A DNA stretch of 33,828 bases, taken from Isosphaera sp. (GTDB taxonomy: Bacteria > Planctomycetota > Planctomycetia > Gemmatales > Gemmataceae). The notes under the pieces were generated by a model, which saw nothing but the letters and a program-made list of their open reading frames with translations, was not told where the DNA came from and ran no database searches. The translations under genes were made by a program, and so were the position numbers. Below are positions 13,510 through 33,828 of this stretch, piece by piece. Location of the stretch: contig PNKH01000083.1 of assembly GCA_013822345.1 (NCBI GenBank), positions 1 through 33,828 on the forward strand, in the 5' to 3' direction. Each line of letters opens with the position of its first letter. Within the stretch, counting starts at the first letter, position 1.

Positions 13510-13621
13510 CGGTAGCTTGGGGGCCGCAGAGCCTATCACCCTTAGTGCAGTGGTACGACGGCTGTCAACCCCCGCCGCCGCCGGCCCGTCCCGCGAAGCC
13601 GCCGCAAACCCCGAGCCGACA

Positions 13622-18360: not shown

Positions 18361-20103
18361 TCACTTCCCGCCGTTCAGCCCGCGGATCGCCCCGAGGAAC
18401 GGCTCGACCCTGAAGCCCGCCGCCTTCTCCATCCGCCTCTTGAACTGGGCGTGGGTCGCCTCGTAAGGCTCCTCCCGGACGTTGAGCGGGATGTGCTCCC
18501 CGAGGTTCTTCAGGGCCGCGGGCGGGAACACCACCCCCGCCTCCCGGGCGAGCGTCTGGTGCGCCCACGCGAGGGTCATGGCGGCGTCCGGGTCGGTCAC
18601 CTTCGCCTTGTCGGTCACCGCCTGTTCGATCATCTTCCGCAGGCTGTCGGCGTGCTCCTTGGTGTAGAGCGGGTCGGCGGTCTCGCTCTGCACCTTCAGG
18701 AACCCGTCGCACCACGTGATCAGGTCGTCCGCAGCGGCCCGCATCCCGGCCGGGTCGCCGAGCGCCTTCTTGGCGACCGCCTTCCGGAACGCCAGCCACT
18801 TGCCGTCGAACCCCTGGGCCTTCTCTGCCAGCCCGCCGGCCTTGATCTGGGCGGCGTGGGCGGCGACGATCCCGGCCGGCACGTCGGTGGCGGACCGGAG
18901 GGTGAGCCGGCCGGGGGTGAACCCGCCGTACCCGCGCTCCTGGCGGGCGCTCGGGTTCTCCAGGGCGTGGTGGCAGGCCCCGCAGTCGAACCGGGCGAAG
19001 TCCATCCCGTCCGCGTCCGGCTGGGCCGCCCGCTCGGCGTCCGCCCGGATCAACTGGGCCTCGGCCCGGAGGGCGGCGACCACCCCGACCGCGAGGTGCC
19101 GGGACAGGTACGACTCGTCCTTCCCTGGGTGGAAGTGGAAGATCTTCCACCGGGCCGCCGGGGTCCAGAACTGCTGCCGGCCGTCGGCGCCCTTGTCGGC
19201 CATCTGCTTGTCGTCGGTGAGGCCGTGGAAGTACGTCAACTTCGGCTCGGCCGGGGACTTCGACTCGACCGGATACCCCCAGTGCTTCGGCTCCGCCTGC
19301 ATGTACGAGGAGAGCTCGAACGGGGGGAGCGGCGGGTGCCCGGCGGCGTACATCTCGTGGGTGACGACCTTTCCTTCGGCCGGGTTGCCGACGTGGCAGG
19401 AGACGCACAGCATGGCCTTGACCACCGGGTTCCGGAGGTCGGCCATCCCCATCTCCCACTTGTACGCCGGTGACATTTCCCGCCACGGGATCGGCCCGGG
19501 CTGGTCCGGCTCCTTGAAGTGCAGGCTCTGCCACTTCTCGTGCATCCCGTGGCAGACGGTGCAGTTCACCCCCCCGGAGTTGGTCGCGAAGTCGGCGAAC
19601 GTCTTGTCCTCCAGCCGCTTCAGCGGGCTCTTGTCGGCCGAGTGGCAGGTCAGGCAGCGGACGTCCTTCGTCACGTCGTAGCCCGGGATGGGCTTCCCGT
19701 CGCTCACCCCGAGGAGCTTCTGCATCTGCTGCCCGAGCGGCTTCTTGAGCGTCTCCAGCGCCTGGCTGTGGACGTCCTTCTCGAGCCAGGTGGCCGACTC
19801 GTTCAGCAGCACGAACTCGTCCGACTTGTAGTTGTCGACGAACTTCTTCGCGCCCCCGCCCCCCGGCTTGTGGCACAGCTCGCAGGCGGCGATGCCGGTG
19901 GACAGGTCCCCGGCCGTCTTGACGGACGGACCCTTGCCGAGGTACTCGCAGCCCGGGTCAGGGACCTTCTTGGCGAACGGCGTGTCCTTGTCCTGGGCGG
20001 CGACCGGGGTGCCACCGGAGCCGCCGTTCAACCCGACCGCCAGCGCGACGGCGACCGCGGACGCCGCGACCGCCACCTGCACCCGCTCCGCGAACCGCGT
20101 CAT
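18361..20103 (-). CDS. Periplasmic pentaheme cytochrome c (third gene of operon)
   Basis: The 580-residue protein has a signal peptide (VQVAVAASAVAVALAVGLNG, cleavage probably near VAAQ-DKD) and five CxxCH heme sites: CELCH, CLTCH, CTVCH, CVSCH and CGACH. It resembles cytochrome c554-type multiheme proteins. THEMYAAGHPPL and EPKHWGYP supply likely distal His ligands and recur in both upstream paralogues. The C-terminal third is helical and heme-free. ATG 20103 overlaps the upstream stop by 4 bases (ATGA), so the two genes are translationally coupled. A family A palindrome follows the stop. Family knowledge suggests periplasmic electron transfer or a catalytic multiheme role (hydroxylamine, nitrogen or sulfur oxyanion chemistry); no substrate can be assigned from sequence. 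Confidence 0.88.
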   Translation of the reverse strand: MTRFAERVQVAVAASAVAVALAVGLNGGSGGTPVAAQDKDTPFAKKVPDPGCEYLGKGPSVKTAGDLSTGIAACELCHKPGGGGAKKFVDNYKSDEFVLLNESATWLEKDVHSQALETLKKPLGQQMQKLLGVSDGKPIPGYDVTKDVRCLTCHSADKSPLKRLEDKTFADFATNSGGVNCTVCHGMHEKWQSLHFKEPDQPGPIPWREMSPAYKWEMGMADLRNPVVKAMLCVSCHVGNPAEGKVVTHEMYAAGHPPLPPFELSSYMQAEPKHWGYPVESKSPAEPKLTYFHGLTDDKQMADKGADGRQQFWTPAARWKIFHFHPGKDESYLSRHLAVGVVAALRAEAQLIRADAERAAQPDADGMDFARFDCGACHHALENPSARQERGYGGFTPGRLTLRSATDVPAGIVAAHAAQIKAGGLAEKAQGFDGKWLAFRKAVAKKALGDPAGMRAAADDLITWCDGFLKVQSETADPLYTKEHADSLRKMIEQAVTDKAKVTDPDAAMTLAWAHQTLAREAGVVFPPAALKNLGEHIPLNVREEPYEATHAQFKRRMEKAAGFRVEPFLGAIRGLNGGK

Positions 20104-21590
20104 GGCTTCCCCCGGGTTACCGACGTCGCGTCGAACAGCTTCTGGAACCTCTGGAACCCGTCCCGCACCCCGTCCAACCCCTTCCGGTCCAGCCCGGACG
20201 GGCTGTCTTTCCCTGCCGGGAACCGCAGCTTGTCGCCTAACGCCTTCACCGGCTCCGCCCACCCCGGCTCCCCCGCCTTCCCCCCGGCCGCGCTGTACAT
20301 CGCCGCGCACCCGAGGTAGTTCGCCGCCAGCGCGTCCCAGTCGTGATCGGCCAGGACCGTGTGCCCGTCCTTGTCCTTGGCCAGGGCGTTGTCGGTCAGC
20401 CGCGCCACGAACTTCCGGGCGACCGCCGGCGACACCCGCGGGGCCGGGTCGCGGTCCTCGGCCGCCTGGAGGATGGCCAGCCACGCGTCCAACTCGGCCA
20501 CTGCCTTCCCGGCCTGCGCCGCCACCGCCTTCGGGCTCGGGGCCGTCGACTTCCCCATTACCTTACGCAACTCGGTCACCGCGCGGAGGTCCGGGGCCGA
20601 AACTCCGGCGAACACCTCCGGGCACAGCTCCGCCGCCACCCCGACCGCCGCGTTCGACCACACCTCCCACCCCGGCCGCCCGACCGGCCGGTCCGCCTGC
20701 CCGCCGGTCCGGCGGATGTCCCCGGTCCCGATCGTCTGGTGGCAGGAGTAGCACGCCAGCCCGGAGAACTCCGGCCACGCCGCCTTCTCGTCCCCGGCCG
20801 CCGCCCGCTCGGCCCGGGCCCGCAGCAGGTCGGCCGACGCCCGCAGCGCCGCCGCCTGACCGACCACCCACGTCCGCACCTCGAACGCCGGCTGCGGGAT
20901 CTTCTCGACCCAGTGCTTCCGGTACTGCGGGGCGGCGTGGAACCGGGCCGCCTCGAACGCCAGCCGCGGGTGCCCGGCGGCGATCAGGTCGTGGTTCACC
21001 TCCCGGTCCGCGTCCCCGACGTGGCACCCGGCGCAGTTCAGCGACCGGGCCACCAGATTGTCGGTCGGGACGAACCCGTAGTCGTCCCACTTCTGCTTGT
21101 TCGACAGCCCCTTCCACCCCGGGGCGTAGTGCGCCTCCAGCCACTTCTCGGCCGGCCCGTGGCACGCCCCGCACCCGACCCCGTCGGCCACCGCGTCGGC
21201 CGGCCGCACGTTGTCGATCGCGTGGCACTTCAGGCACAGGGCCTCCTTGTGCGGGGCGGCGATCCCGAGGAGCTTCCCCATCCGGACCGAGGTCTCGTTG
21301 AACAGCACCCGGTACGCCTTGGCGTGCGGGTCGTGCGGGCCGTCGGTGTTCACCACCGGGGCCCACGTCGTGTGCTCGCTCCCGACCTGGCCGACGGAGC
21401 CCCCGCCGTGGCACGGCGACGACCCGCACGACGCGGTCGGGACCTGGGCGAACGCCGGCATTCCCGTCCCGTAGGGCTTGGCCGGCGGCGTGCCGTTGGC
21501 GGCCGGGCGAGCCGGTTGACCGCCGGACTGGCGGGTGGCGGAGGCCAGGACGGCGAGGACGCCGAAGAACACGAGGACGGAGGCGCGCAC
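20100..21590 (-). CDS. Periplasmic pentaheme cytochrome c (second gene of operon)
   Basis: The 496-residue protein starts with a signal peptide (MRASVLVFFGVLAVLASATR). It has four CxxCH sites (CLKCH, CGACH, CAGCH, CYSCH) and a first site, C55-GSSP-C60-H61, of the wider CX4CH form. CX4CH sites are known heme-binding sites in tetraheme cytochromes c3. VNHDLIAAGHPRLAFEAARF and YRKHWVEKIPQPAF are shared with its neighbours and hold candidate axial His ligands. The start is GTG 21590, 76 bases after the upstream stop; the 3' end overlaps the next gene by 4 bases. With its paralogues it probably forms an extracytoplasmic electron relay or complex. It lacks a lipobox and other membrane anchors. Confidence 0.87.
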   Translation of the reverse strand: MRASVLVFFGVLAVLASATRQSGGQPARPAANGTPPAKPYGTGMPAFAQVPTASCGSSPCHGGGSVGQVGSEHTTWAPVVNTDGPHDPHAKAYRVLFNETSVRMGKLLGIAAPHKEALCLKCHAIDNVRPADAVADGVGCGACHGPAEKWLEAHYAPGWKGLSNKQKWDDYGFVPTDNLVARSLNCAGCHVGDADREVNHDLIAAGHPRLAFEAARFHAAPQYRKHWVEKIPQPAFEVRTWVVGQAAALRASADLLRARAERAAAGDEKAAWPEFSGLACYSCHQTIGTGDIRRTGGQADRPVGRPGWEVWSNAAVGVAAELCPEVFAGVSAPDLRAVTELRKVMGKSTAPSPKAVAAQAGKAVAELDAWLAILQAAEDRDPAPRVSPAVARKFVARLTDNALAKDKDGHTVLADHDWDALAANYLGCAAMYSAAGGKAGEPGWAEPVKALGDKLRFPAGKDSPSGLDRKGLDGVRDGFQRFQKLFDATSVTRGKP

Positions 21591-21666: not shown

Positions 21667-23151
21667 CTAGGGCAAGAGGGGGGCGAGCGTCTTCAGGGCG
21701 GCGGGCCAGTCGCGGTGCCCGCGGACCGCGTCGAACGCCGGGTCGAACCCGGGCTTCGGCGGCTTGCCGGGGTCGCGGTCGCGCTCCAGCGCGGCCAGGC
21801 CGAGGAGCACCTGGCCGACCGGGTCCCAGTCGGTCGGTTTCCCGTCCAGTTTCGGGAAGGCGTTCTTCGCGCGGGCGGTCACCTCGACCGCCGGGGCCTT
21901 CACGAGTGTCAGCCGCTCCTGCCTCAACTGGTCCGCCGCGGCCAGGGCCGGTTCGCCGACCACGCCCCGGCCAGGGAACTTGTTCCGGGTCCCCATGACC
22001 CGCACCAGGTCGCGGAGCTTATCGAGTTGCGGCGCCTGGGCGACCCCCGGGTTCGGCCCGAACTCGCCGGTCGCCGGCCACACCGGCTGCCACACCATCT
22101 GCCCGCGGACCCCGGGGCGGGCGGTCGGCCCCTCGCCGCGCAGGTGGTGGTGACAGGTGGCGCAGTTGAACTCGGCGAACTCCGGCCACGGGCTCCGCTC
22201 GTCCGTCACCGGTCGGGCGGCCCGGTCGGCGAGCAGCCGGCAGGCCGCCTCCGCGTGCGCCACCCGGCCGACCAGCCACCGCCGCGCTTCCGACCCCGGG
22301 CCGGCGTTGTCGTGCCCGCCGACCCGCGCCCGCTCGTACCAGTGCTTCGGCAGCCGCCGGTGGTACTCGCCGAAGTCGAAGTTCAGCGCCGGGTGCCCGG
22401 CCGCGATCATGTCGTGGTTCATGTCCCGGACCGGCACGCCCGGCGACGCCGGGGCGCCGACGTGACAGCCGACGCACGTCGTGGCCCGCTCGCCCACGTC
22501 GTACAGCGGCGTCATCCCGTACTTGGTGAACAGCTCGGCGTGTCCGTCGCGGCCCTTCCAGGCGGTGTGCGGGACGACCCAGTCCTTGGCCGCCCCGTGG
22601 CACGCCTCGCACCCGACCCCGTCCGCCCGCAGGCCGCGCATCCGCTGCCGCCGCGCTCGCTCGACGGCGTCGTCGGTGTCGCGGTCGACGTCCGGGTGCG
22701 CCAGGGCGGGGGTCGTGTGGCACGCCAGGCACCGCACGTCCTCGTACGCCTCCAACTTCTTCCCGTCGGCCCGCTTCTGCCCGAGGAGCTCGGTGATCTC
22801 CCAGGCGGTCGGCCGGTCGGGCCGGCGGCGGGGGGTGTCCTGGGTGGCCTCCAGCAGGGCGTACGCCCCGCGGTGCGGGTCGGCGGCCATCCAACAGGTG
22901 CCGGACGACTGCCACGTCGCCGGGCCCCACGTCCCGGCCAGGGCGTCGGTCCCCGGGCTGCCGTGGCACGCGGCCGCGAGGCACCCGGTGACCCCGACCA
23001 GGTCCGGGGTGCCGGCCGACGACCCGCCGGACTTGGGCGGCGGCCCGACCTCGACCGACAGCCGCGCCGGTGCCGCCGACAGCCAGACCGCGGTGCCGAT
23101 CCCGACGGCGGCCGCGCCCACGAGGAAGACGGTAGCGGCGGCTCGCGTCAT
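21667..23151 (-). CDS. Membrane-anchored or secreted pentaheme cytochrome c (first gene of operon)
   Basis: The 494-residue protein begins with an uncleaved-looking hydrophobic segment (ATVFLVGAAAVGIGTAVWLS). The first heme site is C57-LAAA-C62-H63 (CX4CH); four CxxCH sites follow (CLACH, CEACH, CVGCH, CATCH). VRDMNHDMIAAGHPALNFDF and LPKHWYERARVGG match the two downstream paralogues. TGCLAAACHG aligns with TASCGSSPCHG of the second gene, so the wide site is ancestral to this pair. The end, LLGLAALERDRDPG, is helical. ATG 23151 opens the leftward operon; the gap of 267 bases upstream is shared with the rightward redox operon, which implies coordinated control. Confidence 0.88.
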   Translation of the reverse strand: MTRAAATVFLVGAAAVGIGTAVWLSAAPARLSVEVGPPPKSGGSSAGTPDLVGVTGCLAAACHGSPGTDALAGTWGPATWQSSGTCWMAADPHRGAYALLEATQDTPRRRPDRPTAWEITELLGQKRADGKKLEAYEDVRCLACHTTPALAHPDVDRDTDDAVERARRQRMRGLRADGVGCEACHGAAKDWVVPHTAWKGRDGHAELFTKYGMTPLYDVGERATTCVGCHVGAPASPGVPVRDMNHDMIAAGHPALNFDFGEYHRRLPKHWYERARVGGHDNAGPGSEARRWLVGRVAHAEAACRLLADRAARPVTDERSPWPEFAEFNCATCHHHLRGEGPTARPGVRGQMVWQPVWPATGEFGPNPGVAQAPQLDKLRDLVRVMGTRNKFPGRGVVGEPALAAADQLRQERLTLVKAPAVEVTARAKNAFPKLDGKPTDWDPVGQVLLGLAALERDRDPGKPPKPGFDPAFDAVRGHRDWPAALKTLAPLLP

Positions 23152-23418: not shown

Positions 23419-24306
23419 GTGCTGCTCGGAAAGTCGAGATCGGTGCGGGCGCGCGTGTTCCTCGTGTTCCTGCTGACGGCCGCGTTCACGGCCGTCGGGG
23501 TCGGGATCGGGTGGGGCGGCTCCCGGGCCGGGCTGTGGGCGTGGCCGCCGCAGCCGAGCAGCCGGTTCGGGGTCCTCCTCGGGGTGCTGGCCGGGGCGAT
23601 CGTCGTGTTCGAGATGCTGTACCCGGTGCAGAAGAAGTGGTTCCGGTGGCGGACGTGGTTCGGCGGCGCCCAGACCTGGCTGCGGTGGCACGTCTGGCTC
23701 GGGCTGGCCTGCCTCCCGGTCGTCCTTCTGCACGCCGGGTTCGTCGGGTTCGGCGGCCCGCTCACCACCTGGACCCTGGCCCTGTTCCTGGTGGTCACGG
23801 CCAGCGGGGTGTGGGGCTTGGTGATGCAGCAGTGGGTGCCGCAGAAGCTGCTGTCCGAGGTGGTGGACGAGACGGTGGCGTCCGAGATCGACCGGGTCGG
23901 GGACTACCACGCCGACGAGGCGGACCGGGTGGTCGAGGGGCTGATCACCGTCCCGCCCGGGGCCCGCCGGGCCGCCCCGGCCGTCACCGGGCGGCCGGCC
24001 GACGAGCTGCGGACGTTCCGGGCCGACCTGCTCCTCTACCTCCGGACCGGCCGCCGGTCCCGGTCCCCGCTGGCGTCGGCGACCGAGGCCGAGGCCCGGT
24101 TCGCCCGGCTCCGGGACGCGGTCCCGGAGGAGGCGCTGCCCGGGGTGGACCGGCTCCGCCAGCTCGCCGACCTCCGCCGCCAGTGGGACAAGCAGGCGTT
24201 CTACCAGAGCCTGCTGCACAACTGGCTCCTGGTTCACCTGCCGCTGTCGGTGGCGATGACCGGGCTGATGTTCGTCCACGCGGTCCGGGCCCTGAAGTAC
24301 TGGTGA
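23419..24306 (+). CDS. Diheme cytochrome b-like integral membrane protein
   Basis: The 295-residue protein has about five membrane helices: RVFLVFLLTAAFTAVGVGIG, FGVLLGVLAGAIVVFEMLYP, VWLGLACLPVVLLHAGFVGF, TWTLALFLVVTASGVWGLVM and LSVAMTGLMFVHAVRALKYW. Helix 3 carries H91 and H105, and helix 5 carries H273 and H287, each pair spaced H-x13-H, the classic arrangement for two stacked b hemes in a four-helix bundle. H267 is an extra nearby His. Between helices 4 and 5 is a soluble region of about 120 residues rich in Asp/Glu/Arg. I infer that it passes electrons across the membrane between the cytoplasmic Fe-S proteins and the decaheme cytochrome. GTG 23419 follows a promoter closely; the next gene starts 3 bases after the stop. 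No standard named family is claimed. Confidence 0.82.
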   Translation: MLLGKSRSVRARVFLVFLLTAAFTAVGVGIGWGGSRAGLWAWPPQPSSRFGVLLGVLAGAIVVFEMLYPVQKKWFRWRTWFGGAQTWLRWHVWLGLACLPVVLLHAGFVGFGGPLTTWTLALFLVVTASGVWGLVMQQWVPQKLLSEVVDETVASEIDRVGDYHADEADRVVEGLITVPPGARRAAPAVTGRPADELRTFRADLLLYLRTGRRSRSPLASATEAEARFARLRDAVPEEALPGVDRLRQLADLRRQWDKQAFYQSLLHNWLLVHLPLSVAMTGLMFVHAVRALKYW

Positions 24307-24309
24307 CCC

Positions 24310-25974
24310 ATGCGCGCCACCGACCCGACCCCGCGGCCGACCGGTAAGGACCTGGCCAACCGGTACAAGTACACCGACAACCGGGAGTACGTCCGCCGGC
24401 CCGGCGGGCCGACCGCCCTGCGGACCGGCCTGGCGGTCGTCGCCGGGCTGGCGGTGGTGTCGTGGGCGGCGGCCGAGGTGGTCTTCCCCACCCGGATGGC
24501 CTACCAGCACACCCACGGCACCCTCGCCAACCCGCACGCCCCGTGGGACGCCGACTGCGCCCAGTGCCACAACCCGCACTCCGTCTCCAAGGACGGGGTG
24601 CTGTCCGTCCTGAATGTCCGGGACCGGTGGCACGACCTGACCTGCGAGAAGTGCCACAAGGGCCCGGCCCACCACGCCGCCGTCACCCCGGACGGGGAGG
24701 CGTTCCACAAGCGGTGCTCGAACTGCCACCACGACCACAACGGCCGCGACCACTCGCTCGTCCGGATCGCCGACAGCCACTGCACCGTCTGCCACGCCGA
24801 CCTCGCCAGGAACCACGCCGGCACCCCCAAGGAAGGTCTGTCCCTGCGGGTCACCGCCTTCGCCCCGAAGGACGCCCACCCGGAGTTCCGGGCGGTGCGG
24901 GAGCGGATGGGGCCGACCCAGCACCGGCCGCTGAAGTTCAGCCACCCGCTCCACATGTCGCCCGGCCAGGCCCGCGGCCCGGACGACAAGGCGAGGGTGA
25001 CCGTGGCCCGGCTCAAGGAGCTGGCCGGGCGGGGCGAGAAGGGGGAGGCGGCCGCCCGCCGGTACGCCCCCGGCCAGGACGACCCCGACCTCGTCCAGCT
25101 CGACTGCAAGTCGTGCCACCAGCTCGACGGCGGGGACGGGGACGCCGGGGTCGACCGGCTGAAGAAGGCCCTCGCCGACGCCGGGGAGTCGGCCCGCGGC
25201 GCCCTCCCGCCGCGCGGCGACGGGGCCCACTTCCTGCCGGTCAACTTCGAGGCCCACTGCCGGGCCTGCCACCCGCTCCGGGCCCCGGCCGGGGTCGCCG
25301 ACGGGAAGGTGGTCCCGGGGTTCGACGTGCCGCACCGGCGGAAGGTCTCCGACCTGAGGAACGACCTGAAGGCCGGGTACCTGCGGGGGATGCTGACCGC
25401 CGACCTCCCGTCCCTCACCGCCCCCCCCGGTCCGGGGGACGACCGGCCGAAACTCACCGCCGGCAGCCTCCGGCTCGAGGTCGACCGGATGGCGGCGGTC
25501 GCCGACCACTTCCTCCTCGGGAAGGAGACGTCGGCGGCGTGCGGGTGCGTCGAGTGCCACCAGACAAGGACGGACGGGGAGGTGGTTCCGGTCCCGGACA
25601 AGACGGTGTGGTTCCCCGGGGCGTACTTCAACCACGCCGCCCACCGGTCGCTCGGCTCCACCCCGGCCGCCTGCGCGACCTGCCACCCGGGCACCGAGGG
25701 GCACCCCGTCCCGGTGCGGACCCTCGACCGGGACGCGCTGATCCGCGGCGCCGACACCTGCCGGCAGTGCCACTCCCCGGCCGGGACCGAGGTCACCCTC
25801 CGGGACGGGGACGCCGTCACCCGGCTGTCCGGCGGCGGGATCCGGCACGGGTGCACCGACTGCCACCGGTACCACAACGGGGACCACGCCCTGCAGGGCC
25901 GCGGGGCGTGGGTCAACTTCCCCGAGCCGCTCGGCCTGGACAAGTTCCTCCCCGGGTACAAGAGGAAGGACTGA
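24310..25974 (+). CDS. Membrane-anchored decaheme cytochrome c
   Basis: The 554-residue protein has a short cytoplasmic tail, one transmembrane anchor (ALRTGLAVVAGLAVVSWAAA) and a large periplasmic domain with ten CxxCH sites in order: CAQCH, CEKCH, CSNCH, CTVCH, CKSCH, CRACH, CVECH, CATCH, CRQCH and CTDCH (first Cys at residue 83, last near 515). Many extra His residues (FSHPLHMS, FNHAAHRS, HHDHNGRDH) can serve as distal ligands, as in cytochrome c3/c7-like and NrfH/CymA-linked proteins. It starts 3 bases after the cytochrome b stop and ends 4 bases before NuoEF, so it is firmly in the operon. I infer that it connects the cytochrome b to the soluble pentaheme proteins. The natural donor or acceptor is unknown. 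Confidence 0.9.
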   Translation: MRATDPTPRPTGKDLANRYKYTDNREYVRRPGGPTALRTGLAVVAGLAVVSWAAAEVVFPTRMAYQHTHGTLANPHAPWDADCAQCHNPHSVSKDGVLSVLNVRDRWHDLTCEKCHKGPAHHAAVTPDGEAFHKRCSNCHHDHNGRDHSLVRIADSHCTVCHADLARNHAGTPKEGLSLRVTAFAPKDAHPEFRAVRERMGPTQHRPLKFSHPLHMSPGQARGPDDKARVTVARLKELAGRGEKGEAAARRYAPGQDDPDLVQLDCKSCHQLDGGDGDAGVDRLKKALADAGESARGALPPRGDGAHFLPVNFEAHCRACHPLRAPAGVADGKVVPGFDVPHRRKVSDLRNDLKAGYLRGMLTADLPSLTAPPGPGDDRPKLTAGSLRLEVDRMAAVADHFLLGKETSAACGCVECHQTRTDGEVVPVPDKTVWFPGAYFNHAAHRSLGSTPAACATCHPGTEGHPVPVRTLDRDALIRGADTCRQCHSPAGTEVTLRDGDAVTRLSGGGIRHGCTDCHRYHNGDHALQGRGAWVNFPEPLGLDKFLPGYKRKD

Positions 25975-25978
25975 CCCG

Positions 25979-27946
25979 ATGCTCGTCGAGCGGCTGCGCC
26001 AGATCCAGAACGAGCACGGGTACCTCCCGGACGCCGAGCTGCGGAAGCTCGCCCGGGACGCGGACGTGCCGCTCCACCGGGTGGAGGAGGTGAGCAGCTT
26101 CTTCCCCCTGTTCCGGCTGGAGCGGCACGACCGCCCGGACGTGGTCCTGCGCGTCTGCCGGGACATGAGCTGCCACCTCCGCGGGGCGGCCGCCCTGCTC
26201 GACCCGCAGACCGGGCTGGCGGCCGACGCCCGGAAGGTGGCCGCCGCGACCGGAAAGAAGGTGGCGGTGGAGGGGGTGTCGTGCCTCGGCCGGTGCGACC
26301 GGGCCCCGGCCGCCTGGGCCGAGCGGCACCCGGCCGGCGAGGATCACGGGTGGGTGTACTGCGGCCGGTCCCGGGCCGACCTGGTCGAGGTGGTCCGGCG
26401 GCTGGCGGCCGGGGAGGCCCCGCCCGCGCCCGACCGGGACGACGAGTACCTGCCGAACACCAACCCCGGGCCGGCGGCGTGGCAGATCGACGTGTACGGC
26501 CGGGACCGGGACCGGGACTACGCGGCCGTCCAGTGGGCGGTCGACGACGACGGCGGGGGGCTGGCCCGGACCCCGAAGCCGCCGCCGGCTGACCTGCCGG
26601 CCGCCGAGCTGGAGGGGTACGTCGAGCGGGTCCACCCGGCGCTGTACCGGCTGAAGCCGGCCGGGCTGTCCGGGATGGGCGGGGCCGGGGCGCTGGCGTA
26701 CCAGAAGTGGCTGGACGTGTGGCGGGCCGGCGGGTCCGAGAAGTACGTGGTGGCGAACGGGGACGAGAGCGAGCCGGGGACGTTCAAGGACCGGGAGCTG
26801 ATGCTCCGCACCCCGCACCTGGTGGTCGAGGGGGTGATCCTGGCGGGCCTCGCGACCGGGGCCACCCGCGGGTACATCTACGTCCGCCACGAGTACCACG
26901 AGCAGATCCACGCCCTGCGGGAGGAGATCGCCCGGGCCGAGGCCCTCGGGGCGTGCGGGGCGGACGTGTTCGACTCCGGCCGGGCGTTCCCGGTGGAGGT
27001 GTTCGAGAGCCCCGGCGGGTACATCTGCGGGGAGCAGTCGGCCCTGCTGGAGGCGATGGAGGGGAAGCGGGCCCAGCCGCGGACCCGCCCGCCGGAGCTG
27101 TCCACCAACGGGCTGTGGGACAAGCCGACGGTGGTGAACAACGTCGAGACCCTGGCCTGGGCCCCGTTCATCATGCTCCGGAAGCCGGAGGAGTACGCCG
27201 CCGCCGGGCACCCGATCCCGGGGGCGGCCAAGGGGTTCGTCGGCCGCCGGCTGCTGTCGGTCAGCGGGGATGTCCGCCGCCCGGGGGTGTACGAGGTCCC
27301 GGTCGGGATGCCGCTGCGGGAGTTGGTCGAGGGGGAGGGGTACTGCGGCGGGGTGGTCGGCGGGCGGCTGAAGGCGGTGGCCACGTCCGGCCCGTCCGGC
27401 GGGTTCCTCCCGGCGACGGTGCGGGTGCCGCGGGAGTTCTTCGAGGGGGACCGGCGGGCGAAGGCGGCGGCCGGCCCGATCGGGTGGTTCTTCGAGCGGT
27501 TCCTGCCGCCCGGGGCGGACCGGTTCGATGTCCTCGACCTGCCGCTGGACCTGGGGTTCTTCCGCACCCTGCACGGGGCGGTGGAGCTGCGGGTCGAGCC
27601 GATGCTCGGGGCCGGGCTGGTGGTGTACAACGACAAGGCGGACATGCTCAGCCAGGCGGCGAACGCGTCCGAGTTCTTCCGCAACGAGTCGTGCGGGAAG
27701 TGCGTCCCGTGCCGGCTCGGGTCGCAGAAGCTGGTCCAGATCGGGACCGACCTGGTCGCCCGCCGGGCGGCCGGGCAGCCGCTGGCCGGGGACGACGCCC
27801 GGGAGCTCGGGCGGGACGTGCGGGAGGTCATGAGGACCCTGCAGCAGACCTCGATCTGCGGGCTCGGGTACGTCGCCCCGAGCCCGCTGGCGTCCGCCCT
27901 GGCGTACTTCGCGACCGACGTGTCCGCCGCCCCGCGGCCCCAGTAA
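25979..27946 (+). CDS. NuoE-NuoF fusion, NAD(H)/FMN oxidoreductase subunit
   Basis: The 655-residue protein fuses two complex I-type modules. Residues 1-140 are NuoE-like (LRQIQNEHGYLPDAELRKLA) with the [2Fe-2S] ligands C60, C65, C102 and C106. Residues about 220-640 are NuoF-like: the Gly-rich GLSGMGGAGALAYQKW near residue 229, ANGDESEPGTFKDRELML for FMN/NADH, GGYICGEQSALLEAMEGKRA, and the [4Fe-4S] ligands C572, C575, C578 and C627. This is the NAD(H)-reacting unit also found in hydrogenases and formate dehydrogenases. No other nuo, hydrogenase or formate dehydrogenase genes are nearby, so it serves a different partner, most simply the Fe-S fusion that follows 32 bases later. AGGAAGGA lies upstream of ATG 25979, inside the end of the decaheme gene. 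Confidence 0.92.
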   Translation: MLVERLRQIQNEHGYLPDAELRKLARDADVPLHRVEEVSSFFPLFRLERHDRPDVVLRVCRDMSCHLRGAAALLDPQTGLAADARKVAAATGKKVAVEGVSCLGRCDRAPAAWAERHPAGEDHGWVYCGRSRADLVEVVRRLAAGEAPPAPDRDDEYLPNTNPGPAAWQIDVYGRDRDRDYAAVQWAVDDDGGGLARTPKPPPADLPAAELEGYVERVHPALYRLKPAGLSGMGGAGALAYQKWLDVWRAGGSEKYVVANGDESEPGTFKDRELMLRTPHLVVEGVILAGLATGATRGYIYVRHEYHEQIHALREEIARAEALGACGADVFDSGRAFPVEVFESPGGYICGEQSALLEAMEGKRAQPRTRPPELSTNGLWDKPTVVNNVETLAWAPFIMLRKPEEYAAAGHPIPGAAKGFVGRRLLSVSGDVRRPGVYEVPVGMPLRELVEGEGYCGGVVGGRLKAVATSGPSGGFLPATVRVPREFFEGDRRAKAAAGPIGWFFERFLPPGADRFDVLDLPLDLGFFRTLHGAVELRVEPMLGAGLVVYNDKADMLSQAANASEFFRNESCGKCVPCRLGSQKLVQIGTDLVARRAAGQPLAGDDARELGRDVREVMRTLQQTSICGLGYVAPSPLASALAYFATDVSAAPRPQ

Positions 27947-27978: not shown

Positions 27979-30768
27979 ATGCCCGACCCGATCCCCACCT
28001 CGGACGAGTCCATGTCCGTCGGCCGGGACGAGGAGTCCCCGTTCGCCCGGGACGCGTTCGACGTGCTGATCCGCCGGGAGGAGGAGACCCGGGAGCGGTT
28101 CCGGCAGCGGGTGACGCTGACCATCGACGGGTACCCGGTGACGGTCCCGCGGGCGGTCCCGAAGACCGACTCGAAGGGGGACCGGGTCCGCGGCCCGGAC
28201 GGCGACTTCGTGTTCCGGACGACCACCATCCACGACGCCGCGGTCGAGCTGGTGAACCCCGGGACGTGGGCCCCGGACGGGGCCCGCGGGGCGCTCCCGG
28301 CCGGGGTGTGGACCGAGGCCGACCTGCGGGAGCGGATCCCGACCCTGTGCCACCAGCGGCACGTCCCGCCGGTCGGGGTGTGCCGGGTGTGCTCGGTCCA
28401 CGTGTCCAGCGCCAAGCGCGGGCGGCCGCCGCGGAAGCTGTTCCCGGCCTGCCAGCACTACGTCGAGCAGGACATGGTGGTGACCACCCGGCTCGGGGCC
28501 GACGGGTTCAACCCGAAGGCCCCGGAGACGGCCGACCGGAAGGCGGCCGCCCGGGCGGCCGCCGAGGTGAACACCGCGGTCCGGCTGCTGGCCGAGTTCC
28601 TGGCCGCCGACCACCACCTGCCGGCCCGCGGGGCGAAGCGGTACGACGACGAGCTGGGGGCGGTGGCGACGGTGCTGGAGGCGAACGAGACGCGGCCGCG
28701 GCTGGTCCGCTCACCCGAGCTGCCCGGGCGGAACGAGGGGAAGGCGCCGGCCGACCGGCGGCTGCCGCTGCCGGTGGTGACCGCCCCGGCCGACCCGGGG
28801 GTGAGCCGGGTGTGGGAGGAGTGGAACGAGGCGGTCGACGCCTCGTACCCGTACTCGTCCGGGACGGTGGTGGTGGACCACGACCGGTGCATCCTGTGCG
28901 ACCGGTGCGTCCGGGCGTGCAGCCAGGTGAAGCCGTTCAAGGTGATCGGGCACACCGGGAAGGGGTACCAGACGCGGGTCAGCTTCGACCTCGACCAGCT
29001 GATGGGGGAGTCGAGCTGCGTGCAGTGCGGGGAGTGCATGGTGAGCTGCCCGACCGGGGCCCTGTCGCTGCGGCGGCGGGTCCAGCCGCGGGCGTGGGAG
29101 GACTCCCCGGACAAGATCCCGGTCAACCCGAACCGCCCGTTCCCGGCCGGGTCCGGGTTCCTGACGGCGGACGAGATGCGGGACGTGTGGCTGCGGTACG
29201 ACAGCCCGACCCGGGGGCCGCGGGTGGTGTTCCCGTTCCGGGCCGTCCCGTACGCGTACCTGAAGTGGAACGAGGGGTCGGTCCGGCGGTGGGAGGTGCA
29301 GCCGGGGCAGGAGATGGAGCTGTGCTACGCCGGGGAGTACGGGACGACGGCGTTCCTGCTCCAGGGGACCGGGACGTTCGAGGTGTACCGGCAGAAGCCG
29401 AACACCCCGCCCCCGTGGCCGCGGCCGCCGGCCCGCCCGCGGCCCCGCGGGGGGAAGCCGCGGGACGAGTACGGGGAGTTCGCCACCATCGTGTTCGGGG
29501 ACGAGCTGGTGCTCGGGGAGATGGCCTGCCTGACCCAGCGGCCGCGGGCCGCCACGGTGGTCGCGGTGGCCGAGCCGGACAACCCGGGGATCGCCGTCCG
29601 GGTGGACGAGAACGGGTGGCCGGTGGCCCAGCTCGACTACACCACCCGCGGCCCGGTGGTGGTGTACGAGGTCACCCGGAACATGCTGGACATGATGCGG
29701 CGGGCGGCCGACGTCCGGGACGACGTGCGGGAGGTGTACACCGGGCGGGCGGTGGACGCGTGCGTCCACCGGGGGAAGCTGTTCGAGGGGCTGACCAAGC
29801 GGAGCGACCGCGACGAGGCGGTGATGTTCCTGCTCGGGGAGGGGGTGCGGGGCGGGGTCGAGGTGCGGCGGGTGGACACCGGGGACCGGGTGGTGGCCGA
29901 GGGCGACCTGGGGAGCGACTTCTACCTGATCCGGTTCGGGACGGTGAAGGTGTTCACCTCCGCCGGCGGGCGGGAGCAGGTGACCGCCCTGCTGTCCGAC
30001 GGGGACTACTTCGGGGAGCGGGCCCTGCTCGGGGACCGGCCGGGGGCCCGGTCGGCGACGGTCGCGGCCCTGGACCCGGTGGAGGTGGTGCGGGTGCCCG
30101 GGCCGGTGTTCCGCAAGCTGTGTAACAAGTTCCCGGCGGTGAGGGAGGCGCTGAAGGCCCGGGGGGACGCCCCGTCCCGGGACGCGGACTGGGACCGGGC
30201 CCCGGCCCGGGTGCGGGCCGAGTACGTCCGGCAGGGTCTGTACCAGGCCCAGAAGATGTTGGTCCTGGACCTCAAGAGTTGCACCCGGTGCGACGAGTGT
30301 ACCAAGGCGTGTGCCGACTCCCACCCGGAGGAGGAGAAGGGGAGCGGGCGGGAGCGGCCGGGGCACCCGCGGCTGTTGCGGGAGGGGCTGCGGTTCGGCG
30401 ACTTCCTGGTCGCCACCTCGTGCCGGTCGTGCAAGACCCCGTACTGCATGGAGGGGTGCCCGGTCGACGCCATCCACCGCCGCGGGGGCCAGTTGGAGGT
30501 GGTGATCGAGGACCACTGCATCGGGTGCGGGCTGTGCGAGCGGAACTGCCCGTACGGGGCGATCCACATGGTCCGGCGGGAGGAGCCGAACCCCGCCGCG
30601 GCCGGGTTCCCCGGCGGCGACCCGCACCGGACCGCCGCCCGGGTGGCGAAGAACTGCGACCTGTGCGAGGGGGGGGAGCCGCGGTGCGTCCGCGCCTGCC
30701 CGCACGACGCCGCCTTCCGGTGGGACGGCCAACACCTGCTCGGGGAGGTTGTTACACGACTGGGCTAA
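27979..30768 (+). CDS. Fe-S / tandem cyclic-nucleotide-binding / ferredoxin fusion protein
   Basis: The 929-residue soluble protein has three parts. (1) A NuoG/hydrogenase-like N-terminus: a [2Fe-2S] site (C124, C135, C138, C158) and two [4Fe-4S] sites (from C304, CILCDRCVRAC; from C347, CVQCGECMVSC). (2) Two cNMP-binding domains: the first (about 430-530) has LGEMACLTQRPRAATV, and the second (about 625-715) has YFGERALLGDRPGARSATV; both keep the Gly-Glu and Arg of the phosphate-binding cassette. (3) A DmsB/NrfC-like C-terminus with four [4Fe-4S] sites starting at C768, C815, C847 and C893. The His-Cys cluster of true NuoG is missing. ATG 27979 has gaggaagg upstream; a long open extension to 26707 overlaps NuoEF and is rejected. 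I infer an electron wire from NuoEF to the membrane subunits, controlled by a nucleotide or other small ligand. Confidence 0.9.
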   Translation: MPDPIPTSDESMSVGRDEESPFARDAFDVLIRREEETRERFRQRVTLTIDGYPVTVPRAVPKTDSKGDRVRGPDGDFVFRTTTIHDAAVELVNPGTWAPDGARGALPAGVWTEADLRERIPTLCHQRHVPPVGVCRVCSVHVSSAKRGRPPRKLFPACQHYVEQDMVVTTRLGADGFNPKAPETADRKAAARAAAEVNTAVRLLAEFLAADHHLPARGAKRYDDELGAVATVLEANETRPRLVRSPELPGRNEGKAPADRRLPLPVVTAPADPGVSRVWEEWNEAVDASYPYSSGTVVVDHDRCILCDRCVRACSQVKPFKVIGHTGKGYQTRVSFDLDQLMGESSCVQCGECMVSCPTGALSLRRRVQPRAWEDSPDKIPVNPNRPFPAGSGFLTADEMRDVWLRYDSPTRGPRVVFPFRAVPYAYLKWNEGSVRRWEVQPGQEMELCYAGEYGTTAFLLQGTGTFEVYRQKPNTPPPWPRPPARPRPRGGKPRDEYGEFATIVFGDELVLGEMACLTQRPRAATVVAVAEPDNPGIAVRVDENGWPVAQLDYTTRGPVVVYEVTRNMLDMMRRAADVRDDVREVYTGRAVDACVHRGKLFEGLTKRSDRDEAVMFLLGEGVRGGVEVRRVDTGDRVVAEGDLGSDFYLIRFGTVKVFTSAGGREQVTALLSDGDYFGERALLGDRPGARSATVAALDPVEVVRVPGPVFRKLCNKFPAVREALKARGDAPSRDADWDRAPARVRAEYVRQGLYQAQKMLVLDLKSCTRCDECTKACADSHPEEEKGSGRERPGHPRLLREGLRFGDFLVATSCRSCKTPYCMEGCPVDAIHRRGGQLEVVIEDHCIGCGLCERNCPYGAIHMVRREEPNPAAAGFPGGDPHRTAARVAKNCDLCEGGEPRCVRACPHDAAFRWDGQHLLGEVVTRLG

Positions 30769-30836: not shown

Positions 30837-32057
30837 ATGTCGGCCGACCCGGACCGGACCTTGGACTTCCGACCGGACCACGCGGACCCGTCGCCGGGGG
30901 CCGCCCCGGCGCCGCACTTCGAGACCGCCGAGGTGGCCCGCGGGGCGGAGACCGTCGGGATGAACCCACCCCCCCCGCCCCCGCCGCCGCCCGTCGACCC
31001 CGCCCTCCTCACCTTCCAGGCCGGCCCGGTCGACGAGCAGCGGTCGTCCGACTGGTCGACCCCGTCGGTCGTCCCGTTCCCCGGGTTCGAACTGGGCGAC
31101 GAGGTCGGCCGCGGGGCCGTCGGGGTGGTGTACCAGGCCCGGGACGCCGCCCACGACCGGACCGTCGCCCTGAAGGTGCTGCTGGAGGCCGCCCCGGACG
31201 CCCGGGCCCTCGGCCGGTTCCGCCGGGAGGCCGAGGCGGTCGAGCGCGTGCGGCACGAGAACGTGGTCGCGGTGTACGGGCACGGGGAGGCCGCCGGCCG
31301 GCCGTACCTCGTGATGGAGTTCTGCCCGAACGGCACCCTGACCGAGCGGCTCGCCGCCGCCCCGGCCGGGTTCCCGCCGGACGCCGCCGCCGAGCTGATC
31401 CGGAAGGTCGCCCGGGGGGTGGCCGCGGCCCACGCCGCCGGGGTGGTGCACCGGGACATCAAGCCGGGGAACGTCCTGTTCGACGCCGCCGGGGAGCCGA
31501 AGGTGTCCGACTTCGGGCTGGCCAAGTCGGGCGGCTCGGCCCTGCAGCTGACGGTGGCCGGGGACATCATGGGGACCCCGGCGTACATGGCCCCGGAGCA
31601 GGCGGCCGGGGAGGCGAAGGGGGCCGGCCCGCAGGCCGACGTGTGGTCGCTCGGGGTGATCCTGTACGAGTGCCTGACCGGGTTCCGGCCGTTCACCGGG
31701 CGGAACAACATCGCCGTCCTGGCGGCGGTGCAGGCGGCCGACCCGGACCCGGTCCGGAAGCTCGCCCCGCGGGTCCACCCGGACCTCGCCCGGGTCTGCC
31801 ACCGGTGCCTGGAGAAGGACCCGAAGGACCGGTACGCGGACGCCGGCGAGCTGGCCGCCGCCCTGTCGCTGGTGCTCGCCGGGCTGCCGCTGCCGGACCG
31901 GGCCGGCCGGTTCCGGTGGTGGCACCTGGCCGCCGCCGGGGCGGTGGTCGCCGGGCTGTCGGCCGGCGGCTGGTGGCTGACCCGCCCGGACCCGACCCCG
32001 CCGCCCGACTCCGGCGGCCGCACCGCCCCGGCCGAGCCGGGCTGCTCCGGCGGGTGA
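30837..32057 (+). CDS. Ser/Thr protein kinase, membrane-anchored
   Basis: The 406-residue protein has a disordered N-terminus with a run of nine prolines (MNPPPPPPPPPVDP), then a Hanks-type kinase domain (about 80-345): LGDEVGRGAVGVVYQARDAA, lysine K113 in VALKVLLEA, catalytic D207 in VVHRDIKPGNVLFD, D225 in VSDFGLAK, and MGTPAYMAPEQAAGEA. All key residues are present, so it should be active. A single transmembrane helix near residues 361-383 (WWHLAAAGAVVAGLSAGGWW) is followed by only about 20 Pro/Gly-rich residues, so there is no extracytoplasmic sensor. ATG 30837 begins right after the gap; its substrate is unknown. It directly follows the redox operon on the same strand, so a regulatory link is possible but unproven. 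Confidence 0.9.
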   Translation: MSADPDRTLDFRPDHADPSPGAAPAPHFETAEVARGAETVGMNPPPPPPPPPVDPALLTFQAGPVDEQRSSDWSTPSVVPFPGFELGDEVGRGAVGVVYQARDAAHDRTVALKVLLEAAPDARALGRFRREAEAVERVRHENVVAVYGHGEAAGRPYLVMEFCPNGTLTERLAAAPAGFPPDAAAELIRKVARGVAAAHAAGVVHRDIKPGNVLFDAAGEPKVSDFGLAKSGGSALQLTVAGDIMGTPAYMAPEQAAGEAKGAGPQADVWSLGVILYECLTGFRPFTGRNNIAVLAAVQAADPDPVRKLAPRVHPDLARVCHRCLEKDPKDRYADAGELAAALSLVLAGLPLPDRAGRFRWWHLAAAGAVVAGLSAGGWWLTRPDPTPPPDSGGRTAPAEPGCSGG

Positions 32058-32099
32058 GGCCCGCCCGACCGCCGTGCAGACCGGCCGGAGGTTTCGCCC

Positions 32100-33828
32100 G
32101 TGAACCCCGGCGACCCGACCGACTCCCTGCCCGCACCCGACACGCCTCCGTTCACCCTTCCCCAATCGCCGGACGACGTGGCCCGCTTGGCCGCGCCCGT
32201 CCCACCGCCCCGGACGTTCGCCAGGTACGAGGTCCTCGGGGAACTCGGCTGGGGCGGGATGGGTGTGGTGTACCGGGCCCGGCACGCCGCCACCGGCCAC
32301 GTCGTCGCCCTGAAGGTGATCCGCGGCGACCTGGGTGCGGACCGGGTGATGCTCGACCGGTTCCTCGCCGAGGCCCGTGCCGTCGCGCAGATCAACCACC
32401 CGCACGTCGTCCGGCTGTTCGAGTACGGGGAGCACGCCGGGACCCCGTACTTCACCCTCGAGTACCTGCCCGGCGGCACCCTGGCCGACCGGCTGCGGAA
32501 CGGGGCCCGGCTCCCCGAGCGGGAGGCCGCCGTGGTCGTCATGCAGGTGGCGGCCGGGGTGAGCGCCGCCCACGCCCAGGGGATCGTCCACCGGGACCTG
32601 AAGCCGGGGAACGTCCTGTTCGACGAGACCGGCAAGCCGAAGGTGGTGGACTTCGGCCTTGCCAAGTGGGCCGGGCTGGACCTGACCCGCACCGGGGCGA
32701 CGCTCGGGACCCCACGGTACATGTCCCCGGAGCAGGCGGGCGGGTCGAAGGCGGTCGGCCGGGCGGCGGACGTGTGGGCCCTGGGCGTGGTCCTGTACGA
32801 GTGCCTGACCGGCCGGCGGGCGTTCGACGGCGAGACGGTCGAGGAGGTGATGGCGAACGTCCTGGCCGCCCGGCCGCCGGAGTTCCCGCCGCAGGACCCG
32901 CCGGTCCCGGAGGAGCTGCGGCAGTTCTGCCGCCGCTGCCTGCAGAAGCGGCCGGAGGACCGGTACCCGTCGGCCGGGGACCTGGCCGCGGATCTGGCCG
33001 GGTACGTCGCCGGCGGGGTTGATGGGTCCGCCCCGGTCCGGCCGCGCCGGGGGTGGCGGTGGGTCGAGCGCGTCGGGATCGCGGCCGGCTCGGCGGCCGT
33101 CGCCGCGCTGCTGGTCGTGCTGCTCCGGCCGGTGCCGGTGCAACCTCCCGTTCCGGAAGCGGCGCCGGCGGCCGCGGCCGACTCGGGGCCGACCCCGCGA
33201 CTGGTATTACATGCCAGATCCGGGCCCGCCGGAGCGCTGGCATTCGTCAACGCGAACGAGGTGGTGGCCGGGTACGAGGACGGGTCGGTCCGGATCTGGG
33301 ACCTGGCCCGGGGAGAGGTGGCCAAGACGCTCACCCCGCGTCAGGGCGGGAACGTGTGGTCGGCCGACTTGTCCCCGGAGGTGGAGGTGCCGGCGGCGGA
33401 CGGGCAGCAGCCGCGGCGGGTCCGGTACTTGGTCACCCCGTCCGACGACTCCCAGGTCACGGTGTGGCGGCTGGACAGCTACCAAGTGTACCGGGTCTTC
33501 CCCCAGCCGACCTCGACCAAGGCGGCGGTGTTCAGCCCGGCGGACGCGAACCTGCTGGCCACCGGCGATCGGGCGGCGACCGTCCGGCTGTGGAACCTGG
33601 ACGCCCAGATCCCGGTCGAGCTGGCCGGGCACGCCGGGACGGTCCACGCCCTGGCGTTCAGCCCGGACGGGTCCCGGCTGGCCAGCGCCGGGAGCGACGG
33701 GACGGCCAAGGTGTGGGATGTCCGGGCGGTCCGGTGGGGCGGGCTGGAGGGGCCTGACAAACCGCTCCAGCAACTCGGCGAGCACGACGGGCCGGTGTAC
33801 GGGGTGGCGTTCAGCCCGGACGGGAGCC
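32100..33828 (+). CDS. Ser/Thr protein kinase with WD40 repeats (3' end beyond window)
   Basis: Translation from GTG 32100 is open to the window end (576 codons). GGAGG at 32087-32091, 8 bases upstream, fixes the start. The kinase domain (about 40-300) reads YEVLGELGWGGMGVVYRARH, K72 in VALKVIRGD, D166 in IVHRDLKPGNVLFD, D184 in VVDFGLAK, and GTPRYMSPEQAGGSK. A transmembrane helix follows (IAAGSAAVAALLVVLLRPV). The rest is a WD40 beta-propeller: VVAGYEDGSVRIWDLARGEV, LLATGDRAATVRLWNLDAQI, LAGHAGTVHALAFSPDGSRL, LASAGSDGTAKVWDV, then GEHDGPVYGVAFSPDGS at the edge. Kinase-WD40 fusions are abundant in planctomycetes; the propeller probably binds protein partners. The gap to the first kinase is 42 bases, so the two may be co-transcribed. 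Confidence 0.92.
   Translation, partial: MNPGDPTDSLPAPDTPPFTLPQSPDDVARLAAPVPPPRTFARYEVLGELGWGGMGVVYRARHAATGHVVALKVIRGDLGADRVMLDRFLAEARAVAQINHPHVVRLFEYGEHAGTPYFTLEYLPGGTLADRLRNGARLPEREAAVVVMQVAAGVSAAHAQGIVHRDLKPGNVLFDETGKPKVVDFGLAKWAGLDLTRTGATLGTPRYMSPEQAGGSKAVGRAADVWALGVVLYECLTGRRAFDGETVEEVMANVLAARPPEFPPQDPPVPEELRQFCRRCLQKRPEDRYPSAGDLAADLAGYVAGGVDGSAPVRPRRGWRWVERVGIAAGSAAVAALLVVLLRPVPVQPPVPEAAPAAAADSGPTPRLVLHARSGPAGALAFVNANEVVAGYEDGSVRIWDLARGEVAKTLTPRQGGNVWSADLSPEVEVPAADGQQPRRVRYLVTPSDDSQVTVWRLDSYQVYRVFPQPTSTKAAVFSPADANLLATGDRAATVRLWNLDAQIPVELAGHAGTVHALAFSPDGSRLASAGSDGTAKVWDVRAVRWGGLEGPDKPLQQLGEHDGPVYGVAFSPDGS

Follow-up and report, generated by a model that had tools for sequence, protein, structure and literature searches.

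A predicted seven-cluster iron-sulfur protein of Isosphaera sp. with two central cyclic nucleotide-binding domains, and its possible role in a regulated electron conduit

The gene P0001 lies in a 33,828-nucleotide stretch of DNA from Isosphaera sp. (contig PNKH01000083.1 of assembly GCA_013822345.1; hereafter the window). It encodes a protein in which two cyclic nucleotide-binding domains (CNB1 and CNB2) sit between two iron-sulfur (Fe-S) modules. We lean towards the interpretation, somewhat more probable than its negation in our judgement, that P0001 forms the regulated joint in a trans-membrane electron conduit under the control of a second messenger. The features of P0001 are as follows.

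27979..30768, + strand: P0001, a 929-residue CNB/Fe-S protein with a NuoG/HoxU-like N-terminal Fe-S module, CNB1, CNB2 and a HydN/DmsB-like four-cluster C-terminal module
28330..28488, + strand: [2Fe-2S] domain, residues 118-170 (C124, C135, C138, C158)
28885..29061, + strand: two [4Fe-4S] clusters, residues 303-361
29236..29703, + strand: CNB1 with interstrand inserts, about residues 420-575; phosphate-binding cassette at residues 513-527 (nt 29515-29559)
29776..30183, + strand: CNB2, about residues 600-735; phosphate-binding cassette at residues 679-695 (nt 30013-30063)
30253..30714, + strand: four [4Fe-4S] clusters, residues 759-912, HydN/DmsB/DsrO-like

The P0001 reading frame (27979-30768, + strand) is uninterrupted, begins with ATG and specifies 929 residues. 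An earlier note, made from the letters of the window alone, had predicted seven Fe-S clusters on this one polypeptide, and the count was borne out: four cysteines (124, 135, 138 and 158), eight between 304 and 357 and sixteen between 768 and 907 make 28, as seven clusters need. In an alignment of the window protein with proteins from 43 loci (44 sequences, some partial), all 28 were invariant in the 41-44 sequences that covered each of them. In P0001, Pfam gave a weak match to a [2Fe-2S] domain (118-170), Fer4 pairs in two places (about 303-361 and 812-911) and a single CNB (630-717); no helix-turn-helix (HTH) family was among the matches, as the note had also said. The N-terminal module was described there as NuoG-like. 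This was correct in that P0001 has the C-x10-C-x2-C [2Fe-2S] motif and two [4Fe-4S] clusters of the NuoG/HoxU kind, but the His-Cys3 [4Fe-4S] cluster (N5) of true NuoG is absent, there being no Cys between residues 158 and 304. The curated N-terminal families scored below their cut-offs (NuoG 48 vs 470 bits, HoxU 77.5 vs 333 bits). The C-terminal module has its 16 cluster Cys in the four motifs of HydN/DmsB four-cluster ferredoxins, again with scores below the curated cut-offs (DmsB 56.8 vs 214 bits, HydN 65.7 vs 260 bits).

Three candidate identities were rejected. A chance open reading frame (ORF) or mis-assembly was dismissed because near-full-length relatives exist in many genomes. An FNR-like Fe-S sensing transcription factor was dismissed because there is no HTH and the clusters sit outside the CNBs. 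A true complex I or hydrogenase subunit was dismissed because the family scores are far under the cut-offs, N5 is missing and a Pfam scan of 12 ORFs of the window found no hydrogenase or complex I membrane subunit.

The tandem CNB pair in the middle of the protein was recovered by different routes. CNB2 was found by Pfam in P0001 itself (PF00027, 630-717, E 5.8e-24). CNB1 was missed by Pfam on the single P0001 sequence and emerged from a profile of 27 relatives, with which its region matched a putative PKG (whole-sequence E 2e-16, from several individually weak stretches) and PKA-RII-alpha (E 1.6e-11, one stretch). In the printed CNB1 alignments, the GE...R of the profile lands on the PKG cassettes. 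Both domains are also present in an AlphaFold2 model of P0001 (39 sequences, mean predicted local distance difference test score, pLDDT, of 71), in which residues 391-730 had pLDDT values mostly of 80-95, dipping to 66-76 at 471-500, 621-630 and 661-670. Foldseek placed PKA regulatory subunits at the top of the matches to the tandem CNB model (1ne4, E 2.7e-15, 297 columns, root-mean-square deviation, rmsd, of 12.5). VIA-align matched the tandem model to Bcy1 (Z 18.4, 242 residues, rmsd 8.7) and CNB2 alone to the domains of HCN, SthK, CRP and PKG (Z 16-18). Given the large rmsd to Bcy1, the two modelled CNBs are probably placed differently relative to each other than in PKA regulatory subunits. 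The structure prediction that the earlier note had proposed for this region thus yielded a tandem PKA-R-like fold, while the [4Fe-4S] modules on either side were modelled poorly.

The Gly-Glu and Arg expected to hold the cyclic nucleotide phosphate are kept in both cassettes of P0001, as previously noted (CNB1 G513-E514...R523; CNB2 G679-E680...R691), and the CNB1 motif agrees with the canonical cassettes tabulated in Kannan et al. 2007 (PMC2246266). All three CNB1 residues were present in 44/44 sequences, the window protein included; for CNB2 the counts were 43/43 (G679), 42/43 (E680) and 42/43 (R691). A second alignment of 33 proteins, which overlaps the first in part and mixes NuoG-type, flavin-fused and short forms, contained the CNB1 GE...R in 33/33, with the CNB2 Glu in 27/33 and the CNB2 Arg in 28/33. 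With CNB1 unbroken and the CNB2 motif sometimes lost, CNB2 appears less certain as a receptor, and if only one site is the receptor it would therefore be CNB1, even though CNB2 scores better in Pfam in P0001.

Relatives were found across nearly the whole length of P0001, with 39-63% identity (best segment) at planctomycete-labelled loci and 33-36% at Verrucomicrobia-labelled loci; one locus labelled Riflebacteria (L037) also has a P0001 relative. Every genome of the genus had a near-full-length match (19/19, window genome included). At E <= 1e-20, P0001 matched 66/95 genomes of the family and 92/392 genomes of the phylum, not all of the latter with CNBs; in both sets some matches span just an Fe-S part and may be other oxidoreductases. 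At least 4/288 genomes of the phylum of the L036 genome (Verrucomicrobia) matched at E <= 1e-40, a lower bound as the matches are split into pieces. In a plasmid search the best matches were from Sphingobium (about 37% over residues 641-928), and no record spanned 80% of the query. The search for the same fusion that the earlier note had called for, supposing such control to be unusual, showed the NuoG-type fusion recurring in many genomes, so that it is no isolated oddity.

Its neighbours recur as well. Among 65 neighbourhoods as called, many of which end at contig ends, the CNB/Fe-S gene was present in 64, the family of the predicted membrane protein P0003 in 44, a NuoEF fusion in 44 and multihaem cytochromes of the families present in the window in 46. 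Judging by this gene content, the CNB/Fe-S architecture is no one-off and is part of a conserved multi-gene system.

Across the relatives the CNB pair and the four-cluster exit are constant, and the part that varies is the NAD(P)H front end. A Sphingobium plasmid (L082) encodes the CNB-CNB-4x[4Fe-4S] core as a fusion with a pyridine-nucleotide disulphide oxidoreductase (Pyr_redox) domain. The core also occurs free-standing at about 500-600 residues, as at L107, where a protein with NAD-binding, FAD-binding and [2Fe-2S] domains is encoded two genes upstream. Wherever one polypeptide contains the donor module too, the CNB pair separates it from the four-cluster module, and this constant position argues for a switch located at that joint.

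Class III nucleotide cyclases, the only class that the cyclase searches covered, were found in 14/65 neighbourhoods; nine of the 14 were scanned with Pfam and the remainder are close homologues. Most belong to a neighbour family (c8, 12 loci) of class III cyclase domains, of which 7/7 scanned members matched PF00211. Its members carry CHASE2 at L031, L033 and L036, FHA at L102 and a weak GAF at L096, with no partner domain at L022 and L107. The cyclases of L089 and L099, found by profile, also matched PF00211, and a gap of 33 bases separates the end of the L089 cyclase gene (FHA and cyclase) from the start of the CNB/Fe-S ORF as called. In Sphingobium L082, a calcineurin-like phosphoesterase annotated cpdA follows three genes on in the cluster.

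Cyclases adjoin the CNB gene cluster more often than expected. Two sets of relatives' genomes, 20 drawn from the 92 phylum matches and 10 from the 43 loci L003-L045, were fixed before any cyclase neighbour was known. A cyclase lay within the neighbourhood stretch in 6/20 (expected 0.28) and 4/10 (expected 0.40), the expectations coming from each genome's own cyclase count and assuming uniform placement and independent genomes, although several genomes are close relatives. For the larger set P was 5e-7, or about 1e-5 with one of the six dropped. G227 and G181 are of the same genus, the ten hits in the window's genus described below represent one genus, and the loci L033, L035, L039, L041 and L045 share one gene order. 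At these five loci, of Verrucomicrobia type, the CNB gene is followed by c10, c11 and c8 in fixed order; the one scanned (L033:12638-17807, +) encodes a FecR-domain protein (c10), the c11 protein and a CHASE2 cyclase (c8).

The earlier note had proposed that the CNBs act on the enzyme and not on DNA. The lack of an HTH, the CNB1 pocket invariant across front ends and the linked cyclases lend this proposal partial support, in that they fit an action on electron flow and not on DNA.

The window's own genome has a single PF00211 match, on another contig (C11), and this cyclase is a c8 member (27% identity to the L102 cyclase by blastp, E 7e-49). At L110:6475-14068 it is divergent from a cytochrome of the LVIVD family with nine CXXCH motifs (L110 6475-10875). 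Across the genus, a cyclase homologue lay within 5 kb of the LVIVD cytochrome in 10/18 cytochrome-bearing genomes, where 0.09 were expected, an expectation that again assumes uniform placement and independent genomes and that split matches in the underlying counts have raised. The LVIVD cytochrome and the CNB gene were within 14 kb of each other in 4/18 genomes (G409, G412, G414 and G417), and a single 27,403-base contig of G409 bears the CNB/Fe-S, NuoEF, decahaem and P0003 genes, three c554-like cytochromes, the LVIVD cytochrome and the cyclase. Based on this linkage, a single system is apparently split between two places of the window's genome, with the C11 pair as the missing half.

In the window, P0001 is preceded by genes for candidate electron donors and acceptors.

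18361..20484, - strand: P0007, c554-like cytochrome, five CXXCH; translation probably begins downstream of the first codon of the ORF
20100..21590, - strand: P0006, c554-like cytochrome, four CXXCH
21667..23151, - strand: P0005, c554-like cytochrome, four CXXCH
23419..24306, + strand: P0003, helical predicted membrane protein, predicted di-haem b, four invariant His
24310..25974, + strand: P0004, decahaem cytochrome c (10 CXXCH), hydrophobic over a stretch close to the N-terminus
25979..27946, + strand: P0002, NuoE-NuoF fusion, 655 residues: thioredoxin-like [2Fe-2S], FMN/NADH domain, SLBB and [4Fe-4S]

The gene order P0003, P0004, P0002, P0001, with gaps of 3, 4 and 32 bases, suggests a four-gene operon with P0001 last; the three c554-like cytochrome genes are divergent and upstream of it. 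In P0003, H91, H105, H273 and H287 were invariant in 44/44 sequences, and H287 was nearly invariant in a 27-row alignment (A2) with several rows cut at their ends. The P0003 model is confident and helical (pLDDT 87.6), with H91 and H105 on helix 84-106 and H273 and H287 on helix 237-294, giving the two helical His pairs about 14 residues apart that were sought for a b561/NOX-like di-haem b protein. The Sphingobium homologue of P0003 gave a weak Pfam b561 match, below the cut-off. Directly downstream of the operon (31089-33828, +) are two proteins with protein kinase domains, the second of which also carries WD40 repeats and has homologues (c4) in 17 of the 65 neighbourhoods.

From these data we infer the following mechanism. 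The NuoEF fusion P0002 would oxidise cytoplasmic NADH, and electrons would travel from the N-terminal [2Fe-2S]/2x[4Fe-4S] module of P0001 to its C-terminal four-cluster module and onward, by way of two putative b haems of P0003, to the decahaem P0004 and the c554-like cytochromes outside. A 3',5'-cyclic purine nucleotide would bind to the CNB pair, chiefly at CNB1. A shift like that of PKA-R may then alter how far apart the modules lie or how they dock on the membrane haems. The second messenger would thereby open or close electron flow, in whichever sense the gating operates. More tentatively, as a proposal that may fall short of an even chance, this would be a new category of respiratory control: a class III cyclase devoted to the system (with CHASE2, FHA or GAF domains in relatives) would supply a cyclic mononucleotide that gates, within one polypeptide, the passage of electrons from one Fe-S module to the other in a trans-envelope wire fed by NADH. 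Such a wire, possibly extending to the cell surface, would occur in planctomycetes and in some members of the verrucomicrobia and the proteobacteria.

A number of observations weigh against this mechanism. At its entry, P0002 fell far short of the NuoF cut-off (302 vs 559 bits), so that NADH is a presumed donor, and at its exit a fold search with P0003 returned no solved structure matching at E <= 0.001. Within P0001, the low pLDDT of the [4Fe-4S] modules (block values of 42-60 at 301-360 and 36-73 at 771-910) means that distances between modules are not to be judged from the model. The phosphate-binding loop of CNB2 is two residues longer than the consensus motifs of Kannan et al. 2007, and in Verrucomicrobia it carries a long insert. 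Four short planctomycete relatives (L102, L103, L104 and L107), in which CNB1 is intact, have lost the CNB2 motif. On the signalling side, no class III cyclase was found in the window at E <= 0.001, 51/65 neighbourhoods show no cyclase (many being cut by contig ends), and in 8/18 genomes of the genus no cyclase homologue lies within 5 kb of the LVIVD cytochrome. The C11 cyclase is barely above its family cut-off (27.6 and 24.0 vs 21.9 bits). Read against the class III motif positions as we take them to be (a metal-binding Asp, an adenine-binding Lys and catalytic Asn and Arg), it lacks the Lys, the L089 cyclase lacks the Asp at the first metal position and the L107 cyclase lacks the Asn at a putative catalytic position. 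Finally, three other places in the window's genome encode CNBs, and the cyclase could serve other targets.

The altered CNB2 cassette bears on two alternatives, which we hold to be unlikely to the same degree. In one, the CNBs would bind another small ligand, a nucleoside or some other nucleotide, and report redox or nutrient state, like the trypanosome cyclic AMP-independent PKA, for which the abstract of PMC6440977 describes nucleoside ligands. Such a regulatory subunit was among the best 50 Foldseek matches. However, CNB1 keeps its Glu and Arg in every aligned sequence, and cyclases are linked to the gene. The nucleoside-binding trypanosome receptors presumably lack a canonical pocket, and we take structure 6h4g, an E311A/T318R/V319A mutant by its title, to bind cyclic AMP. 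In the other, the CNB pair would be purely structural and free of ligand, a dimerisation or docking element that spaces the entry and exit Fe-S modules. The four short relatives that have lost the CNB2 motif retain the gene set, and CNB1 of P0001 has large inserts, both of which agree with such a role, but neither the invariance of the CNB1 Gly, Glu and Arg across front ends and phyla nor the cyclase linkage in excess of expectation would be anticipated from it. These four relatives are in any case natural single-site versions of the CNB pair and would be useful for experiments.

Slightly less probable still is that cyclic nucleotide control acts on the assembly, localisation or stability of the complex and not on electron transfer, with the cyclases perhaps mainly serving other receptors: the CHASE2, FHA and (weak) GAF domains of the linked cyclases and the kinase genes beside the operon suggest wider signalling, and one of the three other CNB places (L085:958-1767, -) encodes an N-terminal CNB that keeps GE and an Arg, with a C-terminal part that is FHA-like by eye, but L086 lacks GE...R by eye and the C87 CNB is under the Pfam cut-off, so that the P0001 pockets are, by their motifs, the most canonical seen in this genome.

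The gated conduit that we favour has partial precedents. Rv0998, a protein acetyltransferase, and Bd1971, an EAL enzyme, likewise have a CNB domain on an enzyme not known to bind DNA; both have solved structures, contain a single CNB and are not known as redox enzymes. PKA regulatory subunits and PKG share the tandem CNB fold and the GE...R cassettes, whereas P0001 has no kinase, its effector parts are Fe-S electron-transfer modules and its CNBs are arranged differently in the model (rmsd 8.7-12.5). NuoEFG, HoxEFU and HydABC resemble P0002 and P0001 in their NuoE, NuoF and N-terminal NuoG Fe-S parts and differ in the points given above (N5, membrane subunits, sub-cut-off scores). The closest catalogued relative is family 13, Bact_Pyrredox, in Table 1 of Kannan et al. 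2007 (PMC2246266), with tandem CNBs C-terminal to an NAD(P)H-type oxidoreductase domain. Its cassette as tabulated there, GEMGLISGRRRGATVRA, is close to that of Sphingobium L082, GEVGLISGRRRGSTVRA, and the L082 protein and its operon partners cluster with those of the window. The front end of the window system differs, being a NuoG-type Fe-S module with a separate NuoEF, and the N-terminal Pyr_redox domain present in L082 is absent from P0001. The main text of that paper nowhere mentions ferredoxin, iron-sulfur or dehydrogenase, and the passages of it that were covered assign the family no partners or function. A literature search, with subscription papers and preprints outside its scope, found no description of a NuoG-type CNB-Fe-S fusion, the conduit or the cyclase link. 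As far as we have seen, the P0001 form is a new version of a catalogued, seemingly uncharacterised kind, and the kind itself would be new if gating were shown.

The cytochromes invite comparison with known conduits. The LVIVD cytochrome of L095 matches the ExtM-type multihaem family (NF040943, E 9.6e-29) well below its cut-off (100 vs 800 bits), and the copy in the window's genome lies outside the window, on C11. A porin-cytochrome conduit could be compared with the LVIVD multihaem cytochrome family, which is near the CNB gene in 13 neighbourhoods, and a family (c6) of about 690 residues at 14 loci (e.g., L019:16045-18123, +, and L036:19630-21702, -) that adjoins the LVIVD cytochrome in several. 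By eye, c6 proteins have a signal-like N-terminus and an aromatic C-terminus and are possibly outer-membrane barrels; the L019 member had no Pfam match, and neither it nor the L036 member had an NCBIfam match. Often adjoining c6 is another family at 14 loci (c5), whose L019 member (13542-15911, -) is HbpS-like, of a haem-degrading protein family. In addition, the Sphingobium decahaem cytochrome (L082:11095-12891, +) has an N-terminal FHA-like region, below cut-offs; FHA is also present on the linked cyclases of L089 and L102, hinting at phospho-dependent docking.

To our knowledge, bacteria adjust their electron transport through gene expression, the supply of substrate and the proton-motive force. 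If the proposed reading is correct, a second messenger that directly gates an electron wire would link signalling to energy metabolism at the time scale of ligand binding, and would constitute an addressable biological electron switch. The gating idea, which is open to test on the purified protein, would also provide a role for the CNB-oxidoreductase fusions catalogued in 2007 (PMC2246266) and for some class III cyclases in planctomycetes.

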